The notes under the pieces are model-generated. The model was not told where the DNA came from. It was given only the letters and a program-made list of their open reading frames with translations, and made no database searches. This document shows positions 32,486 to 63,804 of a stretch of DNA of 64,000 bases, in pieces. Numbering within the stretch: the first letter of the stretch is position 1; each line of letters opens with the position of its first letter. The position numbers and the translations under genes were made by a program. The DNA is from Salinibacter grassmerensis. GTDB lineage: Bacteria; Bacteroidota; Rhodothermia; Rhodothermales; Salinibacteraceae. The stretch lies in contig NZ_CAMTTF010000001.1 in assembly GCF_947077765.1 (NCBI RefSeq), forward strand, positions 842,818 to 906,817, given 5' to 3'.

Positions 32486-32711
32486 AGAAAAAGCCCTTAC
32501 CTCAGTACGGAGGCTCGGGCGGCTGCACAGGACCCACGGAGGATGCCCCAGCGTCCGCTGTAGAGGAGGGCGAGGCGATACCGGCGTCCGATACGGATGG
32601 GACGCGCCGGGAAACGAGGGCCATGATCGGGGGCAGACACGCCACAAGCCTCGGGTCCCGGAGGTTGTTGGCGGTGAGAGAATCCGCGATGGCGGTCGGG
32701 ATTCTCGTCAC

Positions 32712-33045
32712 GCACACAGGCAGGTCTCCTGGCTCGTCGAACCCACAGGTCGCAAAGAGGGCGACCCATGGCTGACGGATGCGCTCGGCGGCTCCCCTTC
32801 CCGCCACGACGAGCTGTCCCGATAAGGGTGGTCGGGGTCACTCGGCCGGGCAGTGGCGGATCGCCTCTGGCGCGCGTCCGTCGTTCGATTCACAGTTGCG
32901 GGTACAGCCCCAGACTGGCCGCGACGGCGGACTGAAGAGCAGTCGTCGAGACGACCTGACCGCTTCAGCGCGCGTCGTGGCAGCACTGGTGTTCCCTTTT
33001 CATCCCGCCCGGCAGGTGCCCGGCGAGAACCTGTGACGTGTGTGA
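32712..33045 (-). promoter_or_regulatory. Cobalamin riboswitch
   Basis: On the minus strand the conserved elements occur in order: GATGAAAAGGGAACACCAGT near 32985-33005, GTACCCGCAACTGT near 32890-32905, GCCACTGCC near 32850, GGGAAGGGGAGCC near 32790-32805, and the B12 box AGCCAGGAGACCTGCC at 32719-32734. All fit the adenosylcobalamin aptamer. It lies 230 bases before btuB and should repress the B12 uptake genes when cobalamin is abundant. The outer limits are estimates. The stretch 32486-32711 between aptamer and gene probably holds the expression platform; I could not identify it. Confidence 0.93.
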
Positions 33046-33146
33046 AAGAACGAGTTTCAAATACAGTCTCAATGTAGACGCTCGACGCGGCAAAGCACAA
33101 TCCCTTCACGGGATCTTTTGTGTGCTTGTCCAGGCCGCGGAAGGCG

Positions 33147-47941: not shown

Positions 47942-49135
47942 ATGCCTGTACAGCGTCTCGGGCGATCGGTGCTGGTCCTACTGCTGCTCGCGGCCCTCGG
48001 GGCCGGGCCCGCCCACGGGCAGCGCATCGCCAAGTACGGGGCCGAGTTTCTGGCCGGCGGCGTGGACGCGCGGGCCCTCGGGATGGGCGGGGCGTACGTG
48101 GGCCTGGCGGACGAGGTGAGCGCGGGGTACTGGAACCCGGCGGGCCTGCACGGCCTGTCCTACCCCGAGATCAGCTACATGCACGTGGAGCGCTTCGCCG
48201 GGGCCGTCTCGTTCGACTACGGCGGCGTCGCGATGCCGGTGACGGCGCGCTCCACGGTCGGCGTGTCCGTCTTTCGGAGCGGGGTGAACGACATCGTGAA
48301 CACGCTCGCGGCCTGGAACCCGGACCGGGGGCAGCCGCTGCCCGACTACGAGAGCCGCATCACGCGCTTCTCCGCGGCCGACTGGGCCCTCTTCGTGAGC
48401 TACAGCCGGGCGGTGAGCGATCGCCTCGCGGTGGGCGTCAACTTCAAGGGCATCCACCGCTCGATCGGCGACTTCGCCAACGCCTGGGGCTACAGCATGG
48501 ACGTGGCGGCGCGCTACCGGGCGGGGCCGTACCGCGTCGGCGCCGTGGTCCGCGACGTGACGACCATGCTGCAGAGCTGGAGCATCACGCCCGGTGCCTT
48601 TGAGGTCAACTGCATCAACCCGATCGATGAGCAGCCGTTCGACGCGTGCCTGGACGACACTGGGACCCTCATCGAGGGGAACGCGGCGCGCTATCAGGCC
48701 GTGTTTGACCAGCGCATCCCGCAGGGGGGGACGGCGCTCGTGCTGCCGGTGGCACGCCTCGGCTCGGGGGCCGTCTGGCCGGTGGGCGACGGGCACACGC
48801 TCACTGTGGGGCTCGACGTGGACGTGGCGGTGGATGGGCGGCGGGCGTTCGTGCCCAACATTGGCGACGTGTCGTTCCGGCCGCGGCTGGGGATGGCCTT
48901 CCGCTACGCCGGTGTGGTGGAGCTGCGGGGCGGCGTGCAGCGCCTCCAGGTGGGCGACCCGATCGGGGTAGACCTGACACCGTCCGTCGGGGCGGGGCTC
49001 GACCTGGAGCAGGTGTCCGTCGACTTTAGCTTTGGCGACTTTGCGGGGATTGTGGCGGACGACCTGGGCTACTCCTACCGCATCTCGGCCCAGCTCCGCC
49101 TCGAACAGCCCGGCCTGGAGCGGCCGGAGGAGTGA
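47942..49135 (+). CDS. PorV/PorQ-family outer membrane protein
   Basis: A 397-residue beta-barrel protein. The signal peptide is SVLVLLLLAALGAGPAHGQ, followed by AKYGAEFLAGGVDARALGMG and AYVGLADEVSAGYWNPAGLHGL, the hallmark N-terminus of the PorV/PorQ (UPF0164/FadL-like) group in Bacteroidota. Repeated strand pairs end with SVDFSFGDFAGIVADDLGYS and ISAQLRLEQPG. Members act in type IX secretion or as channels, but no other T9SS gene is in the window. It starts 44 bases after rsmB. Confidence 0.88.
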   Translation: MPVQRLGRSVLVLLLLAALGAGPAHGQRIAKYGAEFLAGGVDARALGMGGAYVGLADEVSAGYWNPAGLHGLSYPEISYMHVERFAGAVSFDYGGVAMPVTARSTVGVSVFRSGVNDIVNTLAAWNPDRGQPLPDYESRITRFSAADWALFVSYSRAVSDRLAVGVNFKGIHRSIGDFANAWGYSMDVAARYRAGPYRVGAVVRDVTTMLQSWSITPGAFEVNCINPIDEQPFDACLDDTGTLIEGNAARYQAVFDQRIPQGGTALVLPVARLGSGAVWPVGDGHTLTVGLDVDVAVDGRRAFVPNIGDVSFRPRLGMAFRYAGVVELRGGVQRLQVGDPIGVDLTPSVGAGLDLEQVSVDFSFGDFAGIVADDLGYSYRISAQLRLEQPGLERPEE

Positions 49136-49210
49136 TGCTGCCCCGATTACTGCTTTCCGACGGGGAGCCGCCCGGGAATGGAAGCGGTCCTGAGGGATAA
49201 AGAAGGAGCG

Positions 49211-49729
49211 TCAGCCCGTCGGCTCCGCATCGATCAAGGGGGTCAGGCGCTCGGCCCTCCGAACGTCTTCGAAGGCCCACCCGGAAACCGGTTCGTTCCG
49301 GGGGATGACGGAGACATCGCCCGTCGTCTCGGGCACCACGGCCAGCACCTGCGCCGGGTGGGCGATGCCGTGCTGGCGCAGCTTCGACCGGAGGTCGTCC
49401 TCCGTCACGCGTGCGGCGTCGAGGTGGTCGGACAGCACTTCCTCCCCGGCCATGATGAGAAGGGGTTCATTGTCGACGAGCCGTTCGACCAGGGCGGCGG
49501 CCCGGCGGAGGGTCGAGACGATCCACTGCATGCCGTAGAGCACGGCGAGGCCGGCGGCCCCGACCAACAGCGACGGCCGCTTTGCGAGCAACGTCGAGGC
49601 CACGACGGAGCCGATGGCCACGGTGATCGCGAAGTCGAAGCTCGACATCTTCGAGAAGCTCCGCAGCCCCGTCAGGCGCGTCAGGACGAGCAACGCCGCG
49701 TAGATGCCGATCCCTGTGAGCAGGATCAT
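49211..49729 (-). CDS. DUF421 (YetF-type) membrane protein
   Basis: A 172-residue protein with three N-terminal membrane helices (MILLTGIGIYAALLVLTRLT, MSSFDFAITVAIGSVVASTL, LLVGAAGLAVLYGMQWIVST), the conserved KMSSFDFAITVAIGS pattern and a cytoplasmic domain (LLIMAGEEVLSDHLDAARVT ... LRSKLRQHGIAHPAQVLAVV) typical of YetF/YcaP. Function in bacteria is unclear. It is the last chromosomal gene before the cassette array. Confidence 0.9.
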   Translation of the reverse strand: MILLTGIGIYAALLVLTRLTGLRSFSKMSSFDFAITVAIGSVVASTLLAKRPSLLVGAAGLAVLYGMQWIVSTLRRAAALVERLVDNEPLLIMAGEEVLSDHLDAARVTEDDLRSKLRQHGIAHPAQVLAVVPETTGDVSVIPRNEPVSGWAFEDVRRAERLTPLIDAEPTG

Positions 49730-49985
49730 CGGGAGGGATCACTGCCGGTCATCCATGTCCAGTCAATCATTGTACGGGCGTACTCAAGGAATGGGGAGCG
49801 GGGGCGGCCGCAGTTCCAACCGCGGCGACGTGGGGCTCCGTCCGGCGCCTGCAGAGACCCGCCATCGGTGCCGTCCGGGAGGTGCTGTTCGTTGACGGGG
49901 GCACCGACCCCGAGGAGGGAAGATCACAGCAGGCGTGGGGGATCCGGCGGGACATTGGAGGGCGAGCCTGCGGGCGTTTGGTCGC
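49730..49985. other. Chromosome/integron boundary region
   Basis: No gene is recognised. The sequence stays GC-rich and host-like up to the last attC site at 49986. It marks where the array ends; I see no second integrase or direct repeat here. Confidence 0.5.
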
Positions 49986-50173
49986 GATAACGTGGAAACT
50001 CACCTGATCCGGGTGGGAAAACGTTTCACTTCAACTACCACTGCTCGGACTGCAACGTACGGCGAAGTATCCATCCGTTCGCTTGGTCACTCTTGATCAA
50101 CAAAGTTGAACACCTCTACTGCAATCACACGCAAGTGGCAGCAGCCCGGGTTCAGGTGCAGTGGTGGTTATGT
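49985..50173 (-). repeat. attC site of cassette 11 (array end)
   Basis: GATAAC at 49986-49991 and GTTATG at 50167-50172 bound it. Inner arms CTCACCTGATCCGGG and CCCGGGTTCAGGTG pair imperfectly. It is close kin to the cassette 8 attC (52632). It is the last site of the array, and its R' core reads GTTATC rather than GTTATG. Confidence 0.8.
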
Positions 50174-50324
50174 GAGCCAGTTAAAGCACGAATTGGACAT
50201 CAAACTCGTAGCGAAGTATTCTCGACTTGTTGTAACAGATCGACGCCCGTATGGGCCCTATCGAAAATCCAGGAGGAGTCGTTCTAAACTTATCGGTTCA
50301 GTTCGCAACAGCGCCTGCGACATG

Positions 50325-50879
50325 TCATTCTGAATATCTAGGTATTTCAGAATGAGGGACTGGTACAAACTCGATAGAGCCTCTCGTTTTCTCCAGCGAT
50401 CCGATGTATTTCCCCCGTTCCACCTTAGATTTGGAAAAAGTATCCGCTATAGGTGGGTTTCCTCTAGTGAGGCTAACGCGATAGGTCTGTTTCCGACTCT
50501 CGAAATAGAGTTCACGAGCGGCAAGATCGGAATCTGGGTTCATATATACCTTCATCGGGGTAACCCTCATCTTGCTATTCTCTAAAATTACCGTCTCGTC
50601 ATTTCTAATTTGGACCCTAAACCCTGGCGGAATAAGATATGAAATGCGTGGAAAGTAGTGAAAATAAATATTTTCTCCCGACTTAATCTTTAACTTTTCC
50701 GAACTCTACTGATAATTATGGTACAAAGCGTAGGCCGGATAGGACAACATTAAAAACGCCAAAATAGCCGCCATACTAAACGACCCCACCCATCCACCCA
50801 ATTTATGTATTGCGAAAACAGATAAAATGGATGCTATACAGAGAAAAGCCACTCTCGATATAAAAAGAAGGAAGAACAC
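50325..50879 (-). pseudogene. Cassette 11 gene interrupted by an in-frame amber codon
   Basis: The minus strand holds one continuous frame apart from a single TAG at 50706-50708. Upstream of it, from about GTG 50879, are two hydrophobic helices (LCIASILSVFAIHKLGG and MAAILAFLMLSYPAYALYHN). Downstream, still in frame, a soluble domain reads KIKSGENIYFHYFPRISYLI ... ETVILENSKMRVTPMKVYMN ... SRKQTYRVSLTRG and ends at 50325. The ATG at 50570 lies within the domain, so it is unlikely to be the true start. The gene would encode a membrane-anchored protein of about 184 residues. Either it is a dead cassette or the amber is read through; family unknown. Confidence 0.65.
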
Positions 50880-50903
50880 GATTAGGAGATTTTTCCGAAG
50901 TAA

Positions 50904-51029
50904 ATATAACGGACGAGATTAGCTCGTGAAAAGTCGTGGCAGATCTGCCGCCCGAGCACAAGAAATGACCTCTGTCCCAAGGAGGCAAAACAGATCCAAC
51001 TTTTCGTCATCTACATCGGGGATTATGTG
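50904..51029 (-). repeat. attC site of cassette 10
   Basis: TATAAC at 50905-50910 and GATTATG at 51021-51027 bound it. AGCTCGTGAAAAG (left) pairs with CTTTTCGTCATCT (right). Same family as the cassette 1 attC (58716). Confidence 0.78.
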
Positions 51030-51041
51030 CGTCGTCACCGA

Positions 51042-51473
51042 TCAGTCGGATTCCGAAATAGGAAGTAGCACAAAGGCAGTAAGAACCATGAGGGCCAGAC
51101 CAGCCCCGAAGAACGTAGGATCTCCAACGAGCATCAAATAGATTCCCCCGGAAAGAGCCGTGAAATTAGCAAGCGCCCAGCCGGCGAGGTTGATCTGCCG
51201 TTCCGCTTCGAAATCTTCGGCGGCTTTCCAACGTGATCGGAGTGCAATCACGCCACCGAAGACGCCAAGAAACGTAAGAACGAACCCGTACTCTACGTAT
51301 GCTCCAATCTCCTGAACCAGACCAGCCGCCAGTGGCGGCGTCGCTGGTCCTGGTAGCACGACCCGACCAAGAATCCAGGTAATGACTCCAAAGACCACGA
51401 TGCCCGTCAGCAGCGCAATTCGAACGATGCGAAGGCCCCGTCGCTGATTTTGTGTGTTCGCTGAACCTGACAT
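51042..51473 (-). CDS. Cassette 10 membrane protein, unknown function
   Basis: A 143-residue protein with four hydrophobic segments: IALLTGIVVFGVITWILGRV, VEYGFVLTFLGVFGGVIALR, INLAGWALANFTALSGGIYL and TFFGAGLALMVLTAFVLLPI. A ribosome binding site GAGAGG lies six bases before ATG 51473. The gene ends 13 bases before its attC. It starts 375 bases from the cassette junction, far more than in most cassettes here, because a possible transposase remnant lies between. No family recognised. Confidence 0.78.
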   Translation of the reverse strand: MSGSANTQNQRRGLRIVRIALLTGIVVFGVITWILGRVVLPGPATPPLAAGLVQEIGAYVEYGFVLTFLGVFGGVIALRSRWKAAEDFEAERQINLAGWALANFTALSGGIYLMLVGDPTFFGAGLALMVLTAFVLLPISESD

Positions 51474-51611
51474 CGTACCTCTCAGTGAGTGTGAAGAATG
51501 TGAAGGCGAGCACCATCTAGAACACCGTTGACTTGAGTAGTCAAGCTACTGTGTGGTCCACTTCCCAGTAAGCCCCGACACGCGAGATTGACCGTGCGAG
51601 AAGGTGTGGCA

Positions 51612-51846
51612 TCACTCATCACACAGCAAGTAACCTCGATTAGAATAGCGATACATCTTGAACCACCCTGCGCTGTCACTATTTTGTACTAAGAAAACCC
51701 TGAAGGAGATAGCTATCAAACGTTGAATTGCGGTTTCCGAACGGAACCACTTGACGGGAATCGCAATCTTCGCCCATTCCAGTTCAATTAGATTCAGGCT
51801 TGGACTATGGCGAGGAGACGAAGGAGAGTTCGCTCCTACTGAATAC
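51612..51846 (-). pseudogene. Possible IS630-type transposase C-terminal fragment
   Basis: The minus frame reads SPSLNLIELEWAKIAIPVKW just inside cassette 10. This resembles the last DDE motif of IS630/Tc1 transposases (YSPDLNPIE-x-x-W), with the usual Asp changed to Ser. It continues through LIAISFRVFLVQNSDS to a stop at 51612. The N-terminal catalytic parts are absent and no inverted repeats were identified. Assignment rests on one motif. Confidence 0.4.
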
Positions 51847-51847
51847 A

Positions 51848-52037
51848 CATAACGATTTAGCTGAGGTGCGGAGGGCGAAAAAACGCTAACCGAAGCGCTT
51901 ACCGACAAAAATAACAACGCCAGACGGAGTTTCCATTCTCCGGAATCGCTACTCCTGACCAGCGAAGTTGAGACTGCTCAACAGACCTCGATCGATGACA
52001 GCCTCAGCCCTCCGTCACCCCTAGCGGGGGTTATGTG
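51848..52037 (-). repeat. attC site of cassette 9
   Basis: CATAAC at 51848-51853 and GTTATG at 52030-52035 bound it. GCTGAGGTGCGGAGGGCG (left) and CAGCCCTCCGTCACCCCTAG (right) are the inverted arms. Same family as the cassette 2 attC (58035). The cassette 9 stop codon lies inside the right core. Confidence 0.85.
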
Positions 52038-52606
52038 TCCTCCTTGTCCAAATATGGAGCAAGCTCATCTCGGAGGTGTTCGGTGACCATTTCTTTTTCT
52101 TCAATTGAGACGTGAACGAAATCAGGATGCGTTTCCCCATTGGTGACACCGTGCCACTTCATGAAAAAGCACTGGCTAAATTCTTTCCTCAACCTTACGT
52201 CTAAGTATTTTATCCCCAATACGACGAAGTGAGGGGGAGTCTCGTTAGGTAGATGTAATCCATCATTGTACCAAGGGGTTGGAGCGTTTGCGTCGACAAC
52301 ATTACCTATTGAGAACTCAAAACTATAGTCGGGGTCACCTGAAAGATCGCTCTCTACGAAGAGAAGTATTCCCTTCACATCAGTTGCTGAGTAGACTCCT
52401 GTATTCTCAAGCGTAATTTGGACTCGAAAGGGAGGACTGTCAGGTAGGGGCTTGATTCCCGGCTCCGAAATAGTGAAGAAGACTCTCTTATTTTTTCGCT
52501 CCTCCTCAGCAGATTTCCGTGCATTCCATACCGTGAACAGAGCTGCAATTGCCGAGATGGCTCCCGCGACTGCGGATACGGCTGTCCATACAATTTTGGG
52601 TTCCAT
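52031..52606 (-). CDS. Cassette 9 membrane-anchored protein
   Basis: A 191-residue protein with one N-terminal helix (VWTAVSAVAGAISAIAALFT), a basic stretch (NARKSAEEERKNK) and a soluble beta-rich domain (RVQITLENTGVYSATDVKGI ... LLFVESDLSGDPDYSFEFSI). It resembles bacterial single-span proteins of unknown role. The start is 26 bases from the junction, and its TAA stop is formed by the attC R'' core (CATAAC). Family unknown. Confidence 0.78.
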   Translation of the reverse strand: MEPKIVWTAVSAVAGAISAIAALFTVWNARKSAEEERKNKRVFFTISEPGIKPLPDSPPFRVQITLENTGVYSATDVKGILLFVESDLSGDPDYSFEFSIGNVVDANAPTPWYNDGLHLPNETPPHFVVLGIKYLDVRLRKEFSQCFFMKWHGVTNGETHPDFVHVSIEEKEMVTEHLRDELAPYLDKEDT

Positions 52607-52631
52607 AGACGACTTGATTCATCAGAGACAC

Positions 52632-52819
52632 ATAACGAGAAAACTCACCTGACCCGGGCGAGGAACCGTTCAGTTGCGCCCGGTGCCGCTAGAACTGAAA
52701 CGTACGACGCGGTATCCATTCGTTTGCATCGTCACTCTCGGTCAGCGAAGCCGAACTGCTCTACCGTGACCGCTCGAAAGCGGCAGCAGCCCGGGTTCAG
52801 GTGTAGTGGTGGTTATGCC
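52632..52819 (-). repeat. attC site of cassette 8
   Basis: CATAAC at 52632-52637 and GTTATG at 52812-52817 bound it. CTCACCTGACCCGGGC (left) pairs with GCCCGGGTTCAGGTG (right). Very similar to the array-end attC at 49985. Confidence 0.87.
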
Positions 52820-52861
52820 GCAAATATTGGGAAAATCTTGAGTCCCCCTTTGGCTTCTTAC

Positions 52862-53458
52862 TCAAAACCCGTACGTGAGAGTTGCTTCAAACATGAGTGC
52901 ATGCAGTTGGCGGTTATAGGGCGTATCCAGTGCTTCCTCTGGCTCTTCTAGAAAGGATGCCTTGTAACCGAACGAAACCCCAATATCGATTGAGGGACTA
53001 ATGCTCAGCGTGGGGGTGAGTGCTACCCACGTAGAAATGCTGTTGCTTCCCATAGCGTCTTCCGAGGCTTGGAAGCTGAATCGGGTATAACCAATCCCGG
53101 CTTCCGGAATTACACTCAAAGAGCGCGTCAAAGAAATATAGTATCCAAATCCTGATCTAACCGAATATAGGTTTGCTGTCACATCAGTACGGTCGAGGTT
53201 GAGGCGTCCGTATCTAACAGCGGGGCGAAATATTAACTGCTGTGAGAGGGGATAGTTATAGATAAGTTCGCCTCCCACGATTCCGTCATACTCAGATAGG
53301 AATGTATCTCCAATAGTCAACGGATAACCAGCTTTCAGCGTCAGACTCCTCTTTTGAGCTGCGGTGTCCCCAGGTGTAGCAAGAAAAGGTATTGACAATA
53401 TTGTGATTAAGAAGGTGGTCCTTTTTAGGACTATACCTAATCTAAAAGACTGACTCAT
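52862..53458 (-). CDS. Cassette 8 outer membrane beta-barrel-like protein
   Basis: A 198-residue exported protein. A signal peptide (RTTFLITILSIPFLATPGDTAAQ) leads to alternating strands: SLTLKAGYPLTIGDTFLSEY, GGELIYNYPLSQQLIFRPAV, RSGFGYYISLTRSLSVIPEA, ISTWVALTPTLSISPSIDIG, ending in LMFEATLTYGF with a C-terminal Phe. This is the pattern of small porin-like beta-barrels of Bacteroidota. Start 84 bases from the junction. Family unknown. Confidence 0.8.
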   Translation of the reverse strand: MSQSFRLGIVLKRTTFLITILSIPFLATPGDTAAQKRSLTLKAGYPLTIGDTFLSEYDGIVGGELIYNYPLSQQLIFRPAVRYGRLNLDRTDVTANLYSVRSGFGYYISLTRSLSVIPEAGIGYTRFSFQASEDAMGSNSISTWVALTPTLSISPSIDIGVSFGYKASFLEEPEEALDTPYNRQLHALMFEATLTYGF

Positions 53459-53540
53459 GGTAGCTAATGTGTTTGGTGCATCTATTGAACCCTCATTGAA
53501 AGGCCGCTCAAAGCAGAGGAGAGGTAACGCCTCATATGCG

Positions 53541-53645
53541 GCATAACGGAAGAGCTCAGCTGAAATGGGTAGGAAAAGGCTCGACAGAATTTGACTCGAC
53601 CGACACGGACTCAGCCCATTTTCAGCTGTAGCGTAGGGTTATGGC
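53541..53645 (-). repeat. attC site of cassette 7
   Basis: CATAAC at 53542-53547 and GTTATG at 53638-53643 bound a short site of about 105 bases. CTCAGCTGAAATGGG (left) pairs with CCCATTTTCAGCTG (right). Same family as the cassette 6 attC. Confidence 0.87.
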
Positions 53646-53650
53646 GCACA

Positions 53651-54487
53651 TTACGTTGTGTAGCGCCCAAACATGCACAACGACTCCAGCTCTTCAAGTT
53701 CTGAATGAGGAATATTTCCTAGCTCCATAAGCGTGTATAGCCGCTCGCCTAACTTCGAGACTGCATATTTGCGTGGTTCATAAGGATAATCCAAATATGC
53801 TTCTACACCCATTAGAATTCTCATGCGCTGGGCTTCTGCAGCCTCATGCAGGAAATCGAAAGGGGGCGATTCTAAATCCTGCAGGTTAGCAGAATCAACC
53901 TCAGGGGTATCTCTCCAGCCAAGCGCGAATTCTGACAGGCGATTTAGATACGACAGCAACGTCATCTGCCTCCAACTCATGCGCTCTGCTGCCTCAACTA
54001 GCACATTAGCTCTGGATTGGTCTATGGAGGAATCGAAACAAATATTAGCTAGAAGATAACCAATGTATTCAATTTTTCTTTCCTCATGTTCACGCTGGGC
54101 CGCAATTATTCCGCCCTCAAGTACTTCCTCACCAGAGGATCTGTCCGTTTCCTCGTCAAAAAAATTATCTGACCGAAGCGTGTCACCACTATCTCGTCGT
54201 TGTTCTATTCGCTGCGCAGCATAGTATAATGCGGAAACAACACGCTTCTCTTCTCGACTACTGAGAAAACGACTATTGAACTCAAGAACTAGTCGATGAA
54301 GAGCATCGGTTAACCATGGTCCTAATGAAGCTCCGAGCACAGCTCCTGCTGGATCACCTTTAGTTAGTGCGCCTCCGAGAAGAACCCCAACGCCTCTTCC
54401 AGTACTCCGAACACTAGTTTCTATAATTTCGGGAAGCGGTGAGTCACTGCTATTTGCATCCATATTCGACACTCGACTGTGTGCCAT
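53651..54487 (-). CDS. Cassette 7 protein of unknown function
   Basis: A 278-residue protein if translation begins at ATG 54487, which is created by the integron core site itself (GTTATGG). The alternative start is ATG 54463 (270 residues, MDANSSDSPLPEI). The N-terminal part has a Gly/Ala-rich amphipathic stretch (VGVLLGGALTKGDPAGAVLG, possibly membrane-associating), the rest is helical and charged (REEKRVVSALYYAAQRIEQR, NVLVEAAERMSWRQMTLLSY). I recognise no family; the middle resembles uncharacterised helical proteins found in accessory regions. It ends eight bases before its attC. Confidence 0.75.
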   Translation of the reverse strand: MAHSRVSNMDANSSDSPLPEIIETSVRSTGRGVGVLLGGALTKGDPAGAVLGASLGPWLTDALHRLVLEFNSRFLSSREEKRVVSALYYAAQRIEQRRDSGDTLRSDNFFDEETDRSSGEEVLEGGIIAAQREHEERKIEYIGYLLANICFDSSIDQSRANVLVEAAERMSWRQMTLLSYLNRLSEFALGWRDTPEVDSANLQDLESPPFDFLHEAAEAQRMRILMGVEAYLDYPYEPRKYAVSKLGERLYTLMELGNIPHSELEELESLCMFGRYTT

Positions 54488-54673
54488 AACGACAACGCTC
54501 AGCTGAAATGGACACAGAAATGCCTGACAGATTCTGATCGCTAGAACGATTTCGCCGGGCGCAGTTGCCATCCACCAGCGTCGTTAAATTGGACCCGTGG
54601 AGGCGAACGCGCTTGACTGGACTCGATCGAAAACGGCACCAGTCCATTTTCAGCTGTAGCCGTGGGTTATGGC
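54484..54673 (-). repeat. attC site of cassette 6
   Basis: CATAAC at 54485-54490 and GTTATG at 54666-54671 bound it. GCTCAGCTGAAATGG (left) pairs with CCATTTTCAGCTG (right). The left core also forms the start codon of the cassette 7 gene. Confidence 0.87.
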
Positions 54674-54722
54674 AAATGCCTGGTGAGATAAATATTCCGT
54701 ACACTATCCCATGCGCGTATTT

Positions 54723-55115
54723 TTAAGTGCCGCTAAGCACAACAGTTAACCAGAGTATTGACATACCGGAGTATGCGACGTACGACTTTGAGATAACTTT
54801 TTTCGTACTAAAAACAAAGTTCTTTATATCGCTTCTTACATCTTTATCAAGTTCATCCTTAGCTTCGAGATTAGTTCCCTCCGTTGTACTATAGGGTAAC
54901 TTTGCACAGAAGCAAGCAGTGAGAGTCAGGAAAATGAGTGAGAGCTGTCCCCATATCCAGCCTCCATTAGCGAAGTGTATCGCGGTGGCTATCATGAATG
55001 CGGGCAGGCCAACGCGAAAATTCAGCAGTCGCGCCTGCTCAGTGTGCACCGTCTGAAGCGCCTCGAGGTACCGGCTGTACCGTACGGCCCTCTTATAAGA
55101 ACCTGAGATTCCCAT
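54723..55115 (-). CDS. Cassette 6 membrane protein
   Basis: A 130-residue protein with two central helices (LPAFMIATAIHFANGGWIWG and LSLIFLTLTACFCAKLPYST) and a third near the C-terminus (SYVAYSGMSILWLTVVL). The N-terminus is basic (YKRAVRYSRYLEAL). The gene starts 340 bases from the cassette junction because a hairpin element lies between. It ends about 50 bases before its attC. No family recognised. Confidence 0.72.
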   Translation of the reverse strand: MGISGSYKRAVRYSRYLEALQTVHTEQARLLNFRVGLPAFMIATAIHFANGGWIWGQLSLIFLTLTACFCAKLPYSTTEGTNLEAKDELDKDVRSDIKNFVFSTKKVISKSYVAYSGMSILWLTVVLSGT

Positions 55116-55194
55116 AGCTAGGTGACAACCTGTGAATGAGCCGAAGCGAGAGTTTACAACATTAGTATACGGTACTTCTGAGACAAAAGTTTAC

Positions 55195-55420
55195 TAAACC
55201 ACCCTCGACTGGAAGTCGAGGGGTTTTGTGGAGGGTGTGACGACTGGAAGTCGGCTAAAGGCTCAACCTTCAAATGTGGGTGCCGACTTCTCTCTTGCCT
55301 TTCGATCCAATTCTCCATCCAGCTGTCGAATGCGAAAGACTCGGTCTCTCAGCAAGACCTCGTCTTCCATACAGCGATGCTAAAGCGGCTCGTCTGAAAG
55401 ACGAGGGTTTTGAACCAGGT
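55195..55420 (-). mobile_element. IS200/IS605-like palindrome-bounded element without transposase
   Basis: Two hairpins with 3-nt loops bound it: CCCTCGACT-gga-AGTCGAGGG (55202-55222) and CTCGTCT-gaa-AGACGAG (55389-55405); each is followed by GTTTTG on the plus strand. A third, CGACT-gga-AGTCG, lies at 55240-55252. Subterminal hairpins with tiny loops are typical of IS200/IS605 ends and of their transposase-less derivatives. A 35-codon frame (55263-55370, minus, MEDEVLLRDRVFRIRQLDGE) lies inside. The element fills the expanded leader of cassette 6. Confidence 0.55.
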
Positions 55421-55453
55421 ACGTGGAAATAAATTTGGTAGTAAAGTGCTTCT

Positions 55454-55645
55454 CCATAACGGACGAACTTAGCTCGCGAGCGGCCAGGAAGAGGTCAGCA
55501 ATATTGCACTCCGGTAGACCAATATAGATGGGGCAATGTCCATTCGCTCATAAGGCCGGTACCGATCAACGAAGACGAATTGCATCACCGAAAACACTTG
55601 ATAATTAGCACAGGCCGCTCGTCAGCTACAGTGATGGTTATGGCG
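55454..55645 (-). repeat. attC site of cassette 5
   Basis: CATAAC at 55455-55460 and GTTATG at 55637-55642 bound it. TTAGCTCGCGAGCGGCC (left) pairs with GGCCGCTCGTCAGCTAC (right). A second GTTATG at 55669-55674 lies inside the cassette 5 gene. Confidence 0.82.
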
Positions 55646-55649
55646 CGTC

Positions 55650-55898
55650 CTACGGCCTTTGGCGTCGGGTTATGCCTGACATTTTCTCGTCCTCTTGGGC
55701 TGAGCTTCCATGCACGTAGTTGACCCGGACGAGAATTCCAAACTGCACAATTAGTGCAGCAATTCCCACTGGATCATTCAAGCCGGTGCGAAGCATAACA
55801 AGGGTCATGGTGAAAATGAGAAGAGACTGGACTACTAGGTCGTCTCCATTTCCTGCCCTGGTGAACCAGTCTGACATCTTTGCGAACCAATTTGACAT
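55650..55898 (-). CDS. Cassette 5 small membrane protein
   Basis: An 82-residue protein with two hydrophobic helices (VVQSLLIFTMTLVMLRTGLN and VGIAALIVQFGILVRVNYVH) after an aromatic N-terminus (MSNWFAKMSDWFTRAGNG). Its tail is basic. The start lies 36 bases from the junction and the stop five bases from the attC, so cassette boundaries fit the gene tightly. Function unknown. Confidence 0.75.
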   Translation of the reverse strand: MSNWFAKMSDWFTRAGNGDDLVVQSLLIFTMTLVMLRTGLNDPVGIAALIVQFGILVRVNYVHGSSAQEDEKMSGITRRQRP

Positions 55899-55932
55899 CG
55901 CCCTCTGGAATCAATTCAGAATGCTAGACGCG

Positions 55933-56046
55933 CGATAACGGGGACATTCAGCCGCGACGGGCTTCGAAACCTAGGAAAACAGCAGAGTAGACGCCAACTA
56001 TCAAAGTGGCACCCGCCCGTCGTCGGCTGTAATAGGGGGTTATGCC
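55933..56046 (-). repeat. attC site of cassette 4
   Basis: GATAAC at 55934-55939 and GTTATG at 56039-56044 bound it. ATTCAGCCGCGACGGGC (left) pairs with GCCCGTCGTCGGCTGTAAT (right). A family of its own in this array. Confidence 0.83.
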
Positions 56047-56056
56047 TACATTAACA

Positions 56057-56896
56057 TCAAATCACTAGCAACTGGTATAGACCGATTCCCGCAGCTGTAC
56101 AGAATCCCCCCACCACTAGCGTGGCCACGTATGAGGCGATAGTCTTCCATGCGGTATGCCAGACAGCTTCTCGGTAGAAAGCCCGCCCTGCCCAAACGAC
56201 GTAAGTAGTGAACACTCCCAGCCAAGTGAGTCCCTCCACGTCACCGCTCAATTCAGCACCCGTGCCAACTATCGCAAATACGTCAATAATTGCCACCACA
56301 AGAATGCTTTGCGCCAGAAGATACAGCAAGAAGGCGTAGTGCTCAGCAAGGGTCAAACGACCACTGCGGTGGAGCAGCCATTGGCTCGCGGCAATAGGTA
56401 TTGCGATGACCGCATACAAGAGGCTAATCTGGAGAGCCACGAAATGAGCGTCCCAGAACCCGTTTCCGCTGTTCGCGCTGGCCGAGGCAACATCTAACAT
56501 GCCGAATAGAGCCGAGAGACCGATGTTTAGGGCAACGATGAGAACGTAGTAGCGCAGTGGATTCAGGTAAGTCACGCGGTTTCCCTCCACGTAATCCCGA
56601 ACCATCGAGCCGGGACGCGTGAACAGATTCCATGCAGTTTGGAGTGTCTTGAAGTCCAGATCGAAGAGCCCCTGTAGGAGGCTACCCACAAGTTGTGAGA
56701 AACGTAGGCGCTGAGTCTGAGCCGACTGGCCACAACGATAGCAGTAGTCGCCCTGTAGCGGGGCCTGGCAATTCATGCACCGATTCGAAGCGGCAGATGA
56801 GGACAACTCAGTCTCCATCCTGCCACCTGGTTCTGCATCAGCCTCGTGGGGCGGAGTACCGGGTGACGTGCTTGTTTCTGAGGCTGAAGATGACAT
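56057..56896 (-). CDS. Cassette 4 zinc-ribbon membrane protein (DUF3667-like)
   Basis: A 279-residue protein. After a low-complexity Ser/Pro/Glu head, a zinc ribbon (CMNCQAPLQGDYCYRCGQ, four Cys in two CxxC pairs) precedes several helices: YYVLIVALNIGLSALFGMLD, LQISLLYAVIAIPIAASQWL, YAFLLYLLAQSILVVAIIDV, and YVATLVVGGFCTAAGIGLYQ. The ribbon plus LDFKTLQTAWNLFTRPGSMV and EGNRVTYLNPLRYYV is the DUF3667 pattern common in Bacteroidota. The start is 30 bases from the junction. Function unknown. Confidence 0.85.
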   Translation of the reverse strand: MSSSASETSTSPGTPPHEADAEPGGRMETELSSSAASNRCMNCQAPLQGDYCYRCGQSAQTQRLRFSQLVGSLLQGLFDLDFKTLQTAWNLFTRPGSMVRDYVEGNRVTYLNPLRYYVLIVALNIGLSALFGMLDVASASANSGNGFWDAHFVALQISLLYAVIAIPIAASQWLLHRSGRLTLAEHYAFLLYLLAQSILVVAIIDVFAIVGTGAELSGDVEGLTWLGVFTTYVVWAGRAFYREAVWHTAWKTIASYVATLVVGGFCTAAGIGLYQLLVI

Positions 56897-56924
56897 GGGT
56901 TACAACCTTTTGTTTTCCACGTAG

Positions 56925-57049
56925 GCATAACGTGAAGCTCACCTGCGAAAAGTCGCGGCGCTTCCATTATCGAAGGCAACGGAAGCACCAACGTTCGTAG
57001 AACGCAAATCGGCCTCCTCTTTTCGTCAGGTGTAGCGATGTGTTATGCC
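56925..57049 (-). repeat. attC site of cassette 3
   Basis: CATAAC at 56926-56931 and GTTATG at 57042-57047 bound it. AGCTCACCTGCGAAAAG (left) pairs with CTTTTCGTCAGGTGTAGC (right). It combines elements of two other families in the array. Confidence 0.83.
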
Positions 57050-57069
57050 TCTACAGTTCTAGAAATCAT

Positions 57070-58011
57070 TTAGACACCGACGCTACTCCGATAGTGGGAT
57101 AATTCCATCACATAATTACTAGCTCCCGCCTCATCCGCAGCGTCAAGAATATCGCCGTCGTCAGTAACGAGAACCAGGTGTTCTCCCTGAACATGATTAT
57201 TCGGTCCAAGGAAAAATGAAATTTGCATATCCCACAGCCAGTTTGCCCTATTCTTTTTGGTCAGGTCACATCCAGTTTCGACGATGCGCTTCAGTATCTC
57301 TTTGTACATCTTCATTGGCACCTTGTAGTTCTCGGCAAGATACTTTCCTTTAGCACGAATTTCATCAGGTGATTCTTCACCTACTCCAGCAGCATCTCTA
57401 AACCGTAGCGCATTAGAAATACCTATTATTACGTCGGAATCTTCGCTATTTAGAAAAGACAATATTTCGCTTTTTGCCTCCTCGTCATCTTCAAAAATTT
57501 GCCAATTGGAGGCGTTCGGATCTGTATGGTTTACCACCTGCCTCAAAACATCGTCGACGAAATTAGCTTCTGACATTTCGATTGCTCTACTAACTTCGCT
57601 CAGATTACCCCTAATATCGGTTAATTCGTCGCTTTCTCCTCTCTCATTCACCTCTTTGCAGAGGTACATCACGTTGTTATAAAGCGCCCCATATTGGTCA
57701 TCAATTTCTCCGTAAAACTCTTTCGCAAACTGGAGTTCGGGATCTGGAATGAAGCGCATCATCTCCTTGGACTCCTGCAAGCAGTGATTCCATAAGCCCA
57801 AAATAGCATGTCGGCAGTCTCCGAAGGCAGGATCACTTGTATCCGCGAGATGGGAAAGGAGCTCACATACAACGTACAGCTGAGCGTACGAGGTATCCCC
57901 CTGTTCCGACTGCTTTTTTGAAAGCTTGGTGCCTAAATCTCTCGCCTCTTCGAAATCGAGCTCTCGGAATAGATTGCGATACACATTGCTGTCGAAGACG
58001 AGGGCACTCAT
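57070..58011 (-). CDS. Cassette 3 PIN-like domain protein
   Basis: A 313-residue soluble protein. The start ALVFDSNVYRNLFRELDFEE has an Asp after a hydrophobic strand, as in PIN nucleases, and the end has EHLVLVTDDGDILDAADEAG, matching the final PIN strand with paired Asp. Between them is a long helical insert (SEVSRAIEMSEANFVDDVLR). This could be a toxin-like or RNA-cleaving PIN protein, but no antitoxin frame is seen in the cassette and the middle acidic residues are not well placed. The start lies 25 bases from the junction. Moderately sure of the fold only. Confidence 0.72.
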   Translation of the reverse strand: MSALVFDSNVYRNLFRELDFEEARDLGTKLSKKQSEQGDTSYAQLYVVCELLSHLADTSDPAFGDCRHAILGLWNHCLQESKEMMRFIPDPELQFAKEFYGEIDDQYGALYNNVMYLCKEVNERGESDELTDIRGNLSEVSRAIEMSEANFVDDVLRQVVNHTDPNASNWQIFEDDEEAKSEILSFLNSEDSDVIIGISNALRFRDAAGVGEESPDEIRAKGKYLAENYKVPMKMYKEILKRIVETGCDLTKKNRANWLWDMQISFFLGPNNHVQGEHLVLVTDDGDILDAADEAGASNYVMELSHYRSSVGV

Positions 58012-58034
58012 TCGTTCTGAAAGTTTATTGGTGC

Positions 58035-58225
58035 GTATAACGATTTAGCTGAGGTGCGGAGGGTGGAAAAATGTCAAACGGAAATCCAGCTGGCTGAAAT
58101 GACAACGCCGGATGTAGTTTCCAGTCTCCAGCATCGTCACTCCCGACCAGCGAAGGCGAAACTGCTTACTAAACCTCGATCGATGACAGCATCAGCCCTC
58201 CGTCAGCTCTAGCGGGGGTTATGCC
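58035..58225 (-). repeat. attC site of cassette 2
   Basis: TATAAC at 58036-58041 and GTTATG at 58218-58223 bound it. TTTAGCTGAGGTGCGGAGGG and CCCTCCGTCAGCTCTAG are the arms. Same family as the cassette 9 attC. Confidence 0.85.
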
Positions 58226-58362
58226 TCTTCGACTTTTCTCTTCTCACCTATGAAAGGTTGCTTCGACGAAGCTTTTTTTAGCATCGTGTCGATCTTTTCG
58301 CTCCCTCCTATCTTTTCTACAACGTCCTATGGCTTCAGCCCAGCGTTTTCACTTCACGTAGT

Positions 58363-58608
58363 TTATCCTTCATCTCGTCCCTTTTGAACCTCCGACCACA
58401 CCACTACTACGAGTCCGCTAATCGCAAATACTATTGACAAAATATAAAACCCTACTTCTGTGATTGTGAATCCGACCACTCGTATTCCATCTCCTAAAGA
58501 TGATCCTATCATAGACAATGAGATCGATATTATAATCAGCGGAAGTCCTATATTTCTAGTACCTTTACGGTTACTCGCCGTATTACTCGTACAGTCGCTT
58601 TGTCCCAT
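58363..58608 (-). CDS. Cassette 2 small membrane protein
   Basis: An 81-residue protein with two helices (LPLIIISISLSMIGSSLGDG and VGFYILSIVFAISGLVVVVW) between a polar head (MGQSDCTSNTASNRKGTRNI) and a short charged tail. The gene starts 109 bases from the junction and ends 138 bases before its attC, so the cassette has unused sequence on both sides. Function unknown. Confidence 0.68.
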   Translation of the reverse strand: MGQSDCTSNTASNRKGTRNIGLPLIIISISLSMIGSSLGDGIRVVGFTITEVGFYILSIVFAISGLVVVVWSEVQKGRDEG

Positions 58609-58715
58609 CTTATTTGCTTCAGCCGATTAGAATAAATGAAAGTGGTTCGCGTCGCCTATCCATTTCGATCACACAGAGCCGAAATGTCGATGCAAAACAG
58701 AGTTATTTTTAAGAG

Positions 58716-58842
58716 GCATAACGGAATCGATTAGCTCGCGAAAAGTCGCGGTAGATCTGTCGCTTCAAGCATTAGAAACGTCATTCGCCTGAAGGGGGCA
58801 AAACGGTCCGAGCTTTTCGTCAGCTACATCGAGGGTTATGCA
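58716..58842 (-). repeat. attC site of cassette 1
   Basis: CATAAC at 58717-58722 and GTTATG at 58835-58840 bound it. TTAGCTCGCGAAAAGTCG (left) pairs with CTTTTCGTCAGCTAC (right). Same family as the cassette 10 attC. Confidence 0.85.
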
Positions 58843-58848
58843 TACCCA

Positions 58849-59322
58849 CTATGCCGTCAGCAATGTACGCAGCATGTTTTCCCTTCGGACGAGTTGCCTT
58901 CCGATTTCCTGCTGCCACAATTCAAGTACTTTCTCTATAGTCTCGTTCTGATCAAATGCCGGAGTGGTCGTGACGACGTATCGGTCCCGTCCCTCCGCGA
59001 CATACTTCACGATTAGAAGCGGTGGCCTATGCTTCCACGCAGCCAAGCGTTTCACCCGTTTCCACGGAATCATGCGTCCGCCCGCATAAAGACCATCCTC
59101 GTCGATCTCGACGTGGACGAGCTTGAAATATATAATCGAAAGAAGAAGAACCAACCCACTGAAGAGTAGCGCTGCGATGAGTGCCTCTACAGCGAAAGAA
59201 CTTCCTTTCTGAAGCTCTGGAAGTATCGCAGCAATCCCAACAAGCAGGAAAAGCAACAGCGGCGGGTAGCCCCACCGAATCGCCCGATAGGTTCCTAATC
59301 CTGTGAGAGACCCACGAGACAT
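58849..59322 (-). CDS. Cassette 1 membrane protein with PH-like tail
   Basis: A 157-residue protein, the cassette nearest attI and so the one best placed for transcription from the array promoter. Two helices (YPPLLLFLLVGIAAILPELQ and EALIAALLFSGLVLLLSIIY) are followed by a soluble part (HVEIDEDGLYAGGRMIPWKR ... VKYVAEGRDRYVVTTTPAFD) that resembles a bacterial PH-type domain. ATG 59322 lies about 15 bases beyond the core site. It ends seven bases before its attC. Function unknown. Confidence 0.75.
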   Translation of the reverse strand: MSRGSLTGLGTYRAIRWGYPPLLLFLLVGIAAILPELQKGSSFAVEALIAALLFSGLVLLLSIIYFKLVHVEIDEDGLYAGGRMIPWKRVKRLAAWKHRPPLLIVKYVAEGRDRYVVTTTPAFDQNETIEKVLELWQQEIGRQLVRRENMLRTLLTA

Positions 59323-59350
59323 AGAATAAAACGAGTATGCATAACCTACA

Positions 59351-59359
59351 ATTATATCA
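59351..59359 (-). promoter_or_regulatory. Candidate cassette promoter Pc (extended -10)
   Basis: The minus strand reads TGATATAAT, an extended -10 hexamer, about 10 bases before the attI core and pointing into the array. No good -35 lies upstream at 17 bases, which is normal for an extended -10. Transcription would start near 59344. Confidence 0.4.
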
Positions 59360-59418
59360 GAGCACTCAACATATCCACGCACTCGTTTCGTAACTCCGTG
59401 AAACCAACGCAGTTGGGC

Positions 59419-59432
59419 GAACAGGACTGTTC
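59419..59432. promoter_or_regulatory. Palindromic operator-like site upstream of intI
   Basis: GAACAG-GA-CTGTTC is a perfect 6+6 inverted repeat between attI and the intI promoter. Its half-sites recall LexA-type boxes (GAAC...GTTC), but the spacing differs from both the Escherichia and Bacillus consensus. SOS control of intI is known in other integrons; here it is only a suggestion. Confidence 0.35.
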
Positions 59433-59473
59433 ATATGTCAAGCAGGTTCGATCCACGGAATATCGCCTACCGC

Positions 59474-59501
59474 TTGACATACTCAATATTGGCAATATTA
59501 T
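59474..59501 (+). promoter_or_regulatory. Candidate promoter of the integrase gene
   Basis: TTGACA (59474-59479), 16 bases, then TATTAT (59496-59501), about 41 bases before the intI ATG. This is a close match to a sigma-70-type promoter in an AT-rich pocket. Confidence 0.5.
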
Positions 59502-59542
59502 TTTCAAGCCATACGTCGTGTCGGAGCCAACTGCCGGTCGCC

Positions 59543-60538
59543 ATGCCCGATGCCCCAGACCAGTCGCCCAAACTCCTCGATCAGGTGCGGCAGACCTGCC
59601 GGCGCCGCCAGTACAGCTACCATACGGAAAAAGCGTACGTGCGCTGGGTCACCCGCTTCGTCCGCTTCCACGACACCACCCATCCCCGCCACCTCGTCGA
59701 GGATGATATCCGGGCCTTCCTGAACCATCTGGCATCGACCCGCAACGTGGCGGCCTCCACTCAGAATCAGGCTCTCAATGGGCTGATCTTCCTCTACGAA
59801 CAGGTGCTCGGCGTGGAACTCGACGACGTTGGTCCCCTTGACCGTGCTGACCGGCCCAAGCGGCTCCCCACGGTGCTCTCCCGCGAGGAGGTCCATCGCC
59901 TGTTCGACGCCATGTCGACAGGTCCGAATCGCCTGATCGCGCATCTTCTCTACGGAAGCGGACTCCGACTGTCCGAAGCCCTTCGCCTCCGGGTCAAAGA
60001 ACTCGACGTTGGAACCAGCCGCCTTCATGTGCGGGACGGCAAAGGCGGGAAGGACCGGACGACGGTGCTGCCCGAGCGCCTCCACGGCCCGCTCCGGCGC
60101 CACCTGCGGAAGGTGAAGGTCCAGTACGAAGAGGACTGCGCCGACGGCGTGGGCGGCGTCTACCTGCCCGACGCCCTGGCGGAAAAGTACCCGAATGCGG
60201 CGACGGAGTGGCGCTGGCAGTACGTGTTTCCCTCTACGAAGCTCTCGGAAGATCCACGCAGCGGGGCCGTCCGCCGCCACCACCGCTCCGACTCCGCCGT
60301 GCAGCGGGCCGTCAAACAGGCCGCCGACGCGGCGGAAATTGAAACGCACGCCACCTGCCACACTCTTCGACACTCCTTTGCGACGCACCTGCTGCAGGAC
60401 GGCACCGATGTCCGGACCATTCAGCAGCTCCTGGGCCACGAGCAGCTGCGCACCACCATGCAGTACGTCCACGTTCTGGAACAGAGCGGCGCGGACGTGA
60501 CGAGCCCGCTCGACACGTTGCCCAAGGACTCAACATAG
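59543..60538 (+). CDS. intI: Integron integrase (tyrosine recombinase)
   Basis: Inserts and excises cassettes by attI x attC recombination. The 331-residue protein has an N-terminal SAM-like core-binding domain (RRQYSYHTEKAYVRWVTRFV), then the catalytic domain with R142 in LLYGSGLRLSEALRL, H273 and R276 in ATCHTLRHSFATHLL, H299 in LLGHEQLRTTMQY and nucleophile Y308. Between about residues 206 and 246 lies the extra segment found only in integron integrases (VYLPDALAEKYPNAATEWRW ... YVFPSTKLSEDPRSG). All catalytic residues are present. Its GC content matches the chromosome, unlike the cassettes. ATG 59543 is chosen; an in-frame ATG at 59435 would add attI-region residues. Confidence 0.97.
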   Translation: MPDAPDQSPKLLDQVRQTCRRRQYSYHTEKAYVRWVTRFVRFHDTTHPRHLVEDDIRAFLNHLASTRNVAASTQNQALNGLIFLYEQVLGVELDDVGPLDRADRPKRLPTVLSREEVHRLFDAMSTGPNRLIAHLLYGSGLRLSEALRLRVKELDVGTSRLHVRDGKGGKDRTTVLPERLHGPLRRHLRKVKVQYEEDCADGVGGVYLPDALAEKYPNAATEWRWQYVFPSTKLSEDPRSGAVRRHHRSDSAVQRAVKQAADAAEIETHATCHTLRHSFATHLLQDGTDVRTIQQLLGHEQLRTTMQYVHVLEQSGADVTSPLDTLPKDST

Positions 60539-60625
60539 CGCTCCCCCGCCTTCTCGACGCGTGCCCCACGTCGCGCGTCCGACGTACCCGCTGGCTCTGC
60601 TCACCTGCTTTGACAAAAACCGTCG

Positions 60626-60656
60626 CTCCAGGTAGGCTCCAGCGCGGGGCCTGGAG
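60626..60656 (-). terminator. Possible ligA terminator
   Basis: CTCCAGG and CCTGGAG form a 7-bp stem just after the ligA stop. On the minus strand a run of five T follows about seven bases later. Its loop is long (17 bases) and contains a shorter competing stem. Confidence 0.4.
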
Positions 60657-60661
60657 GGACT

Positions 60662-63804
<3,143 letters not shown>

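Follow-up and report, generated by a model that had tools for sequence, protein, structure and literature searches.

Positions 49985-60538 of a 64,000-nucleotide (nt) stretch of the Salinibacter grassmerensis genome (contig NZ_CAMTTF010000001.1, 842,818 to 906,817; the whole stretch is called the window) almost certainly carry a complete sedentary chromosomal integron of known type. It is composed of the gene intI for an integron integrase (IntI), an attI site and eleven cassettes each ended by an attC site, with the array read leftward. The initial annotation of this DNA had described IntI, an attI core and eleven attC-bounded cassettes in one orientation, all of which were confirmed at the sites listed; its span of 49986-60538 gave the right locus, with the left edge of the array now corrected to 49985 and the IntI start probably lying at 59543. 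The integron of this Salinibacter relative belongs to an already known kind, in an under-described lineage, and its attC dialect is unusual.

A complete integron is expected to have at least two attC sites in the same orientation with a foldable bottom strand and R and L boxes; here all eleven sites lie on a single strand and carry these features, by pair counts and by a covariance model, R2 (11/11). The GTT cleavage triplet is present at the cassette boundaries in 12/12 cores (attI and eleven attCs), the R'' and R' boxes are complementary, with the R helix pairing in 93.9% of cells, and attI opens the array beside intI. A sedentary integron is further expected to occupy a fixed chromosomal site with vertical inheritance of intI, which is found in the site shared with the genomes G004 and G005 and in the single clade formed by the integrases of the genus; and to have a lineage-specific attC family, which is also found. 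Of a functional integron the gain and exchange of cassettes are expected, which are seen by comparison alone (cassette 8 and G006; no matches in the orthologous arrays). The G+C content is 48.8% in the cassettes, 65.4% in IntI and 66.3% in the remaining window, in agreement with the AT-rich cassettes and host-like integrase first described.

Integrase, attI and attC sites

The integrase end of the integron is made up of the following features.

59543..60538, plus strand: intI, integron integrase, probably 331 amino acids (aa); longest open reading frame (ORF) 59435-60538, 367 aa; TIGR02249, 2a3v alignment
59474..59501, plus strand: Pint, likely intI promoter TTGACA-16-TATTAT, 11/12 consensus
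59351..59359, minus strand: Pc, possible cassette promoter, extended -10 TGATATAAT just before attI, found by eye
59339..59345, minus strand: attI core GTTATGC, where conservation in relatives begins, the cassette side being unconserved

The IntI ORF scores 436 bits against TIGR02249, 171 bits over the cut-off of 265, and its best sequence match among solved structures is IntI4 of V. cholerae (2a3v, E 3.5e-85). The alignment with 2a3v spans residues 48-361 and keeps the catalytic residues and W261. R178, K203, H309, R312, H335 and Y344 (numbered on the 367-aa ORF), the catalytic residues as read from this alignment, are invariant in 50/50 IntIs compared, and so are W259 and W261 of the added domain. 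With its frame open, IntI is thus as intact-looking, and as clearly provided with the extra domain, as had been proposed. Translation probably starts at the ATG at 59543, because the promoter at 59474-59501 sits downstream of 59435; in the aligned loci a variable stretch is followed by agreement which resumes close to this ATG. As a caveat on this start, the 36 codons upstream of 59543 are also open and can be aligned in several relatives.

The TTGACA of Pint is exact in 3/6 aligned loci and has one mismatch in the other three, while the second hexamer is weaker in the relatives. The extended -10 of the Pc candidate is present in 5/6 aligned loci; it was not reported by a consensus promoter scan, whose sole minus-strand site is CCGACA-16-AATAAT at 59524-59497 (9/12).

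The eleven attC sites fall into two size groups, 104-126 nt (n=5) and 189-190 nt (n=6). Beyond attI they follow each other on the minus strand as given here, with the position of the R' core; each was found by R2 and by a second covariance model, R1.

58716..58841, minus strand: attC1, 126 nt, R' core 58722
58035..58224, minus strand: attC2, 190 nt, R' core 58041
56925..57048, minus strand: attC3, 124 nt, R' core 56931
55933..56045, minus strand: attC4, 113 nt, R' core 55939
55454..55643, minus strand: attC5, 190 nt, R' core 55460
54484..54672, minus strand: attC6, 189 nt, R' core 54490
53541..53644, minus strand: attC7, 104 nt, R' core 53547
52630..52818, minus strand: attC8, 189 nt, R' core 52636
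51847..52036, minus strand: attC9, 190 nt, R' core 51853
50904..51028, minus strand: attC10, 125 nt, R' core 50910
49985..50173, minus strand: attC11, 189 nt, R' core 49991; terminal, chromosome resumes on its left, also placed by junction alignment

Aligned on the bottom strand, the sites share an R helix of six pairs and an L helix of sixteen, with a spacer between them. Under this structure, which was drawn from the same eleven sequences, 97.1% of cells are paired versus 78.3% in shuffles (0/500 shuffles as high), and 13/22 pairs have changes on both sides versus 7.6 in shuffles (0/500 reach 13); shifting the structure by 1-3 columns brings pairing down to 29-47%. R1 was built on the window's own sites, so its matches in the window hold by construction. 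R2, meant to lessen this circularity, was built on 26 attCs from other genomes only, which had been located with R1, and its structure was taken from RNAalifold, which on these 26 sites recovered the same stem unaided (22 pairs, 14 with compensatory cells). Searched over the 64 kb with default filters, R2 recovered exactly the eleven known coordinates, the weakest match having 41.6 bits (E 2.9e-8), and gave no other match up to E 1; all sites first listed from the sequence alone are therefore also covariance-model matches (11/11). A chance origin of the attCs is excluded by pair counting and R2.

The covariation test took the place of a single-site fold test. Minimum free energy (MFE) folds of single attCs are weak for several sites (z -4.4 to -0.2); for attC2 and attC4 they lack the R helix, and for attC10 and attC11 the R/L stem is missing altogether. 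At the gathering threshold Rfam detected a tRNA and a cobalamin riboswitch (32702-33048, minus strand, 58 bits) in the window, and none of the attCs. A rough check of the specificity of R1 gave three weak matches in two loci among 42 of 65 collected loci (593,647 bases), a sample which left out four Salinibacter-lineage loci and 19 others and in which the array may be missing, because many contigs end close to IntI.

The orthologous site, the cassettes and their exchange

The integron lies between two genes, which we take to be a YetF-like gene and ligA.

60662..62734, minus strand: ligA, conserved right-hand neighbour of the integron
49211..49729, minus strand: YetF-like gene, left-hand neighbour, common to G004 and G005

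Both flanks (window 48000-49984 on the left, 60610-62900 on the ligA side) were used as queries against 13 genomes of the genus, including the present one. In G005 both flanks are 93% identical and are separated by 3.2 kb, versus 10.6 kb in the window; in G004 they are 91% identical, with 87% over the 500 bases adjoining the array. Both genomes carry two attCs at the YetF-ligA site (L106, L104), and by alignment the left array junction is at the same host position as in the window. Their cassettes are different: the eleven window cassette proteins had no match in L104 or L106 (tblastn, 1e-6), the array DNA has no similarity to L104 at 1e-8, and it resembles L106 only in the region of attI and in one attC. 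The comparison of related strains therefore shows that cassette content at the orthologous site differs in G004 and G005.

In G011 one attC is present beside ligA within the 12 kb read (L122), and the left-flank match is weak and located elsewhere. In G008 and G012 the two flanks are on separate contigs; G002, G003, G006 and G010 have a good left-flank match and only short or weak pieces of the ligA side; in G007 the ligA side alone is matched, and weakly, and in G009 neither flank was matched.

The three IntI copies at L104 (5841-6939), L105 (7740-8884) and L106 (6120-7153), which belong to G004 and to two loci in G005, have a frame change near residue 117 of the window IntI. It looks as if one old insertion had been inherited and copied.

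The cassettes, 479-1110 bp in length (n=11), and their genes are as follows.

58722..59344, minus strand: cassette 1, 157-aa membrane-like ORF, 58849-59322
58041..58721, minus strand: cassette 2, 81-aa ORF, 58363-58608
56931..58040, minus strand: cassette 3, 313-aa ORF, 57070-58011, no family above cut-off
55939..56930, minus strand: cassette 4, 279-aa DUF3667 protein, 56057-56896, PF12412 E 1e-14
55460..55938, minus strand: cassette 5, 82-aa ORF, 55650-55898
54490..55459, minus strand: cassette 6, 130-aa membrane-like ORF, 54723-55115, long leader
53547..54489, minus strand: cassette 7, 278-aa ORF, 53651-54487
52636..53546, minus strand: cassette 8, 198-aa beta-barrel-like protein, 52862-53458
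51853..52635, minus strand: cassette 9, 191-aa ORF, 52031-52606
50910..51852, minus strand: cassette 10, 143-aa membrane-like ORF, 51042-51473
49991..50909, minus strand: cassette 11, 81-aa ORF, 50325-50570

Exchange is best seen in cassette 8. Window 52775-53578 is 91.7% identical over 806 nt to G006:C5:11697-12502, in a distant congener whose left-flank core gene is 78% identical to that of the window genome. Going along the cassette, identity is 23/31 (74%) over the 31 nt that precede the GTTATGC core, 637/686 (93%) from the core to the gene end, 39/44 (89%) over the first attC8 arm and 94/133 aligned positions (71%, 12 unaligned) in the remainder of attC8. The 5' edge fits cutting by IntI, since high identity begins at the core. 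For the gene of cassette 7 a 52% identical relative was found in S. altiplanensis (L110), between two attCs.

Searches of Pfam and NCBIfam were run on IntI and 9/11 cassette ORFs (cassettes 2 and 5 left out), and DUF3667 in cassette 4 was the sole cassette family above cut-off; the cassette 8 protein weakly resembles outer-membrane barrels, with E values of 0.0093 and 0.028 that do not reach the cut-offs. PADLOC, run on 10/11 ORFs (all but that of cassette 11), gave no convincing defence gene among weak matches (best E 0.0045), and viral contigs held no relative of cassette 8, the sole cassette queried. The leader of cassette 6 (55116-55459) has several short hairpins by eye, ctcgtctttcagacgag and similar. 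The 3' part of the cassette 4 gene with the first attC arm has a further copy at G000:C6:88641-89126 (L143), of 76% identity and apparently decayed, where neither R1 nor R2 found an attC. Movement of a gene with half an attC as a module was considered and dropped, the two cases (cassette 8 in G006, the cassette 4 copy on C6) being too few. That the cassettes carry foreign genes, as was initially suggested, agrees with their AT-rich composition; their attC family, on the other hand, is almost confined to this bacterial family.

Spread in the lineage and alternative explanations

With R1 at E 0.01, sites were found in 13/13 genomes of the genus (150 candidates at most were scored per genome, so that the site numbers are minimum values). 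Among 99 genomes drawn from the order, with 26 candidates scored per genome, R1 at E<=1e-6 matched 18/20 genomes of the family and 2/79 others, the latter with one site each. TIGR02249 at E 1e-40 matched 16/27 family genomes, 11/13 of the genus and 0/14 controls, with 13/27 family genomes above the cut-off; at E 0.001 it was uninformative as a detector of IntI, with matches in 14/14 control genomes.

In a tree of 50 IntI rows the eight rows of the genus form one clade (98, starred), which is divided into two clades (100 each), the window IntI being in one of them. The tree contains near-full-length rows free of stops: those of less than about 290 residues or with stops were dropped, S. altiplanensis among them, and seven duplicates were removed. 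It is a quick search with SH-aLRT support only, and other genera of the family are absent from it. The single clade and the shared chromosomal site agree with a resident integrase, as was first supposed.

The window genome has further sites. On C4 one attC accompanies a decayed IntI, and on C1 another accompanies an IntI fragment near 84 kb; C3 has three attCs with no IntI close by, and C2 has a single one. Together with the eleven of the array this gives 17 attCs. The whole-genome search with R2 gave 16 sites, missing attC10, which window searches with both models detect. In G006 the contig C5 (287,103 bases; L108, L109) has an IntI near one end, and from its other end a long array of attCs runs in the same orientation; it may be a circular replicon, a megaplasmid, with an integron across the cut point. 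An 82-nt piece of Salinibacter-type intI is found at L093 10001-10081, on the contig of a haloarchaeal metagenome-assembled genome (MAG), just upstream of an aIF2-gamma-like archaeal gene (by eye), and R1 gave no attC match in L093. As the piece is 96% identical to L120, which comes from a MAG with the same sample prefix, a chimeric assembly is probably the likelier explanation, with a relic of transfer as the other possibility.

By the mechanism of known integrons, IntI would bind the folded bottom strand of the attC hairpins (plus strand of the window) and would recombine attC with the double-stranded attI beside intI, at G/TTATGC; each new cassette would therefore enter at 59345, next to the possible Pc, and older ones would be displaced leftward. 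From the sequence we infer that IntI may be active at present and that Pc may drive the array, and the cassette functions given above are putative in the same way.

Some observations weigh against a working integron with a fixed site. The identity of cassette 8 to G006 ends inside the attC8 hairpin, short of the 3' core, which a hybrid attC produced by attC-by-attC recombination would explain. The IntI at the orthologous site is split between frames in both G004 and G005, and the L106 copy is also without the stretch carrying the catalytic lysine; loss of function is therefore common in the lineage. In G001 (S. altiplanensis) other genes separate what we take to be PorV-like and ligA genes, with no IntI or attC there, and its IntI, with one TAG, sits elsewhere. 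Finally, the window has no exact match to a LexA-like box CTGT-N8-ACAG, a motif of the E. coli type.

One alternative is a frozen array, in which the IntI frame would be kept while expression or activity is lost, and in which the differences between arrays would be due to old events and homologous deletions between similar attCs. Such an array shares its anatomy with the active sedentary integron and differs on present activity only. It accords with the broken IntI in G004 and G005, with the decayed copies elsewhere in the window genome and with the distal difference of attC8 from its G006 relative, which is what attC-attC recombination would leave. It is nevertheless unlikely, in view of the window IntI, which is open with every catalytic residue, and of the two orthologous arrays, where no cassette gene or protein is matched and gain as well as loss is therefore needed. 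A mobile integron, recently arrived by transposon or plasmid, could account for cassettes far more AT-rich than the host, and the G006 integron on a 287-kb contig, apart from the 4.3-Mb one and possibly a plasmid, offers a vehicle of this sort; without a search aimed at transposon ends, this origin is largely refuted by the chromosomal site common to two other species, and the host-like composition of IntI (65.4% vs 66.3%) together with the single clade of the genus IntIs makes it very improbable. That the gene encodes an unrelated tyrosine recombinase and that the repeats next to it are chance or other palindromes could be imagined from the general abundance of tyrosine recombinases (14/14 controls at the loose threshold), and is already refuted by the margin of 171 bits, the added domain, the pair covariation and the independent model R2.

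Comparison with known integrons

A complete integron has been reported in S. ruber M1 by Neron et al. 2022 (PMC9024848), and the IntegronFinder authors had earlier found Bacteroidota integrases only without cassettes, as stated in the same source. The likeness to the present integron is in the Salinibacter lineage and in its being complete, with IntI and attCs; the report is a single-sentence mention, without locus, attC anatomy, spread in genus and family or cassette exchange in the text available of PMC9024848. Bacteroidota are listed among integron-bearing phyla in a 2021 review (PMC8618304), in the portion used here, and an excerpt of a Rubricoccus marinus genome note gives two genes under the RAST 'integrons' subsystem (PMC5609423). 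Sonbol and Siam 2021 searched the genomes of 104 halophiles for integrons, with Salinibacter unnamed in the accessible main text (PMC7923331), and the word 'integron' is absent from the accessible text of a paper on S. ruber genome variation (PMC6060240). A survey of the literature, mostly outside subscription journals and screened as listings, found no paper devoted to Salinibacter integrons. The initial statement that such platforms are seldom discussed in the lineage is right, although they are not unknown, given the report by Neron et al.

The attC sites depart from published norms in three ways. The core is GTTAT in 12/12 cases (attI and eleven attCs), with T as fifth base, whereas the consensus is GTTRRRY with a purine at this position (PMC3053210, available part, as for all citations of this source). 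The full GTTRRRY core of class 1-type attCs is thus lacking, which reduces the resemblance to them and leaves integron membership intact. In a wider set of 104 sites from 35 searched sources including the window, the 102 sites of at least 90 nt comprise 80 with GTTAT, 7 with GTTAC, 3 with other GTT cores and 12 without GTT where expected, some of which may reflect site ends that were placed imperfectly. In 37/37 aligned sites (eleven in the window, 26 in relatives) T is the first extrahelical base and exactly six bases separate it from the second, the spacing at which four tested integrases gave best excision (PMC3053210). At the second extrahelical position 19 sites have T, 16 have C, 2 have A and none has G, so that the T-N6-G of class 1-type attCs is not found; G is present in most attCs, and one cassette with C is known (PMC3053210). 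As to size, 6/11 window sites (189-190 nt) are beyond the range of 57-141 bp quoted in 2011 (PMC3053210). The expression 'textbook integron' first used for the locus is therefore correct for membership, and not for attC length, core and second extrahelical base. By eye, several L-box types occur in the attCs of the window (49985-59345) and of other alignments, for example CAGCTGAAATGGG, CACCTGACCCGGG and GAGGTGCGGAGGG, each of which recurs in several species of the genus.

With class 1 integron attCs the window sites have in common the R and L boxes and the extrahelical T followed by six bases (T-N6-); they differ in length in 6/11 cases and in having GTTAT, not GTTRR. VchIntIA holds the first extrahelical base with two histidines and a proline (PMC3053210), and the two stacked histidines and nearby proline are kept in the window IntI. 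A difference is found at the VchIntIA residue in contact with the second extrahelical base, W157, which corresponds to R200 in the window IntI, IntI1 having R168 (PMC3053210); the family also differs from the V. cholerae repeats in its second base, which is T, C or A, not G. An arginine is present at the position of R200 in 48/50 IntIs compared, and the residue therefore does not explain the change in the second extrahelical base.

It is possible, though we rather doubt it, that the Salinibacter family runs its own closed cassette economy, in an integron dialect isolated by the structure of its attCs. If so, cassettes ended by attCs without a G in second position, half of them of about 190 nt, would move freely inside the family and poorly outside; the two IntI clades of the genus would work beside one attC family; and L-box types would recur between species, with the attC family shared across genera and almost absent outside.

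Other close counterparts are the sedentary integrons of Vibrionales and Xanthomonadales, which likewise have a resident IntI and a lineage-specific attC family; the difference is that arrays at the YetF-ligA site are small (eleven cassettes in the window, two in two relatives). Taxon-specific attC models have been made for 11 taxa, none of them Bacteroidota in the part of Ghaly et al. 2021 at hand (PMC8352920). The window integron provides a well-bounded and comparable chromosomal integron set in Bacteroidota and in cultured extreme halophiles. With 11, 2 and 2 cassettes at one site, cassette turnover can be measured between species, and the attC family, which in length, core and second extrahelical base breaks with rules derived from class 1 and Vibrio integrons, bears on the reach of those rules.

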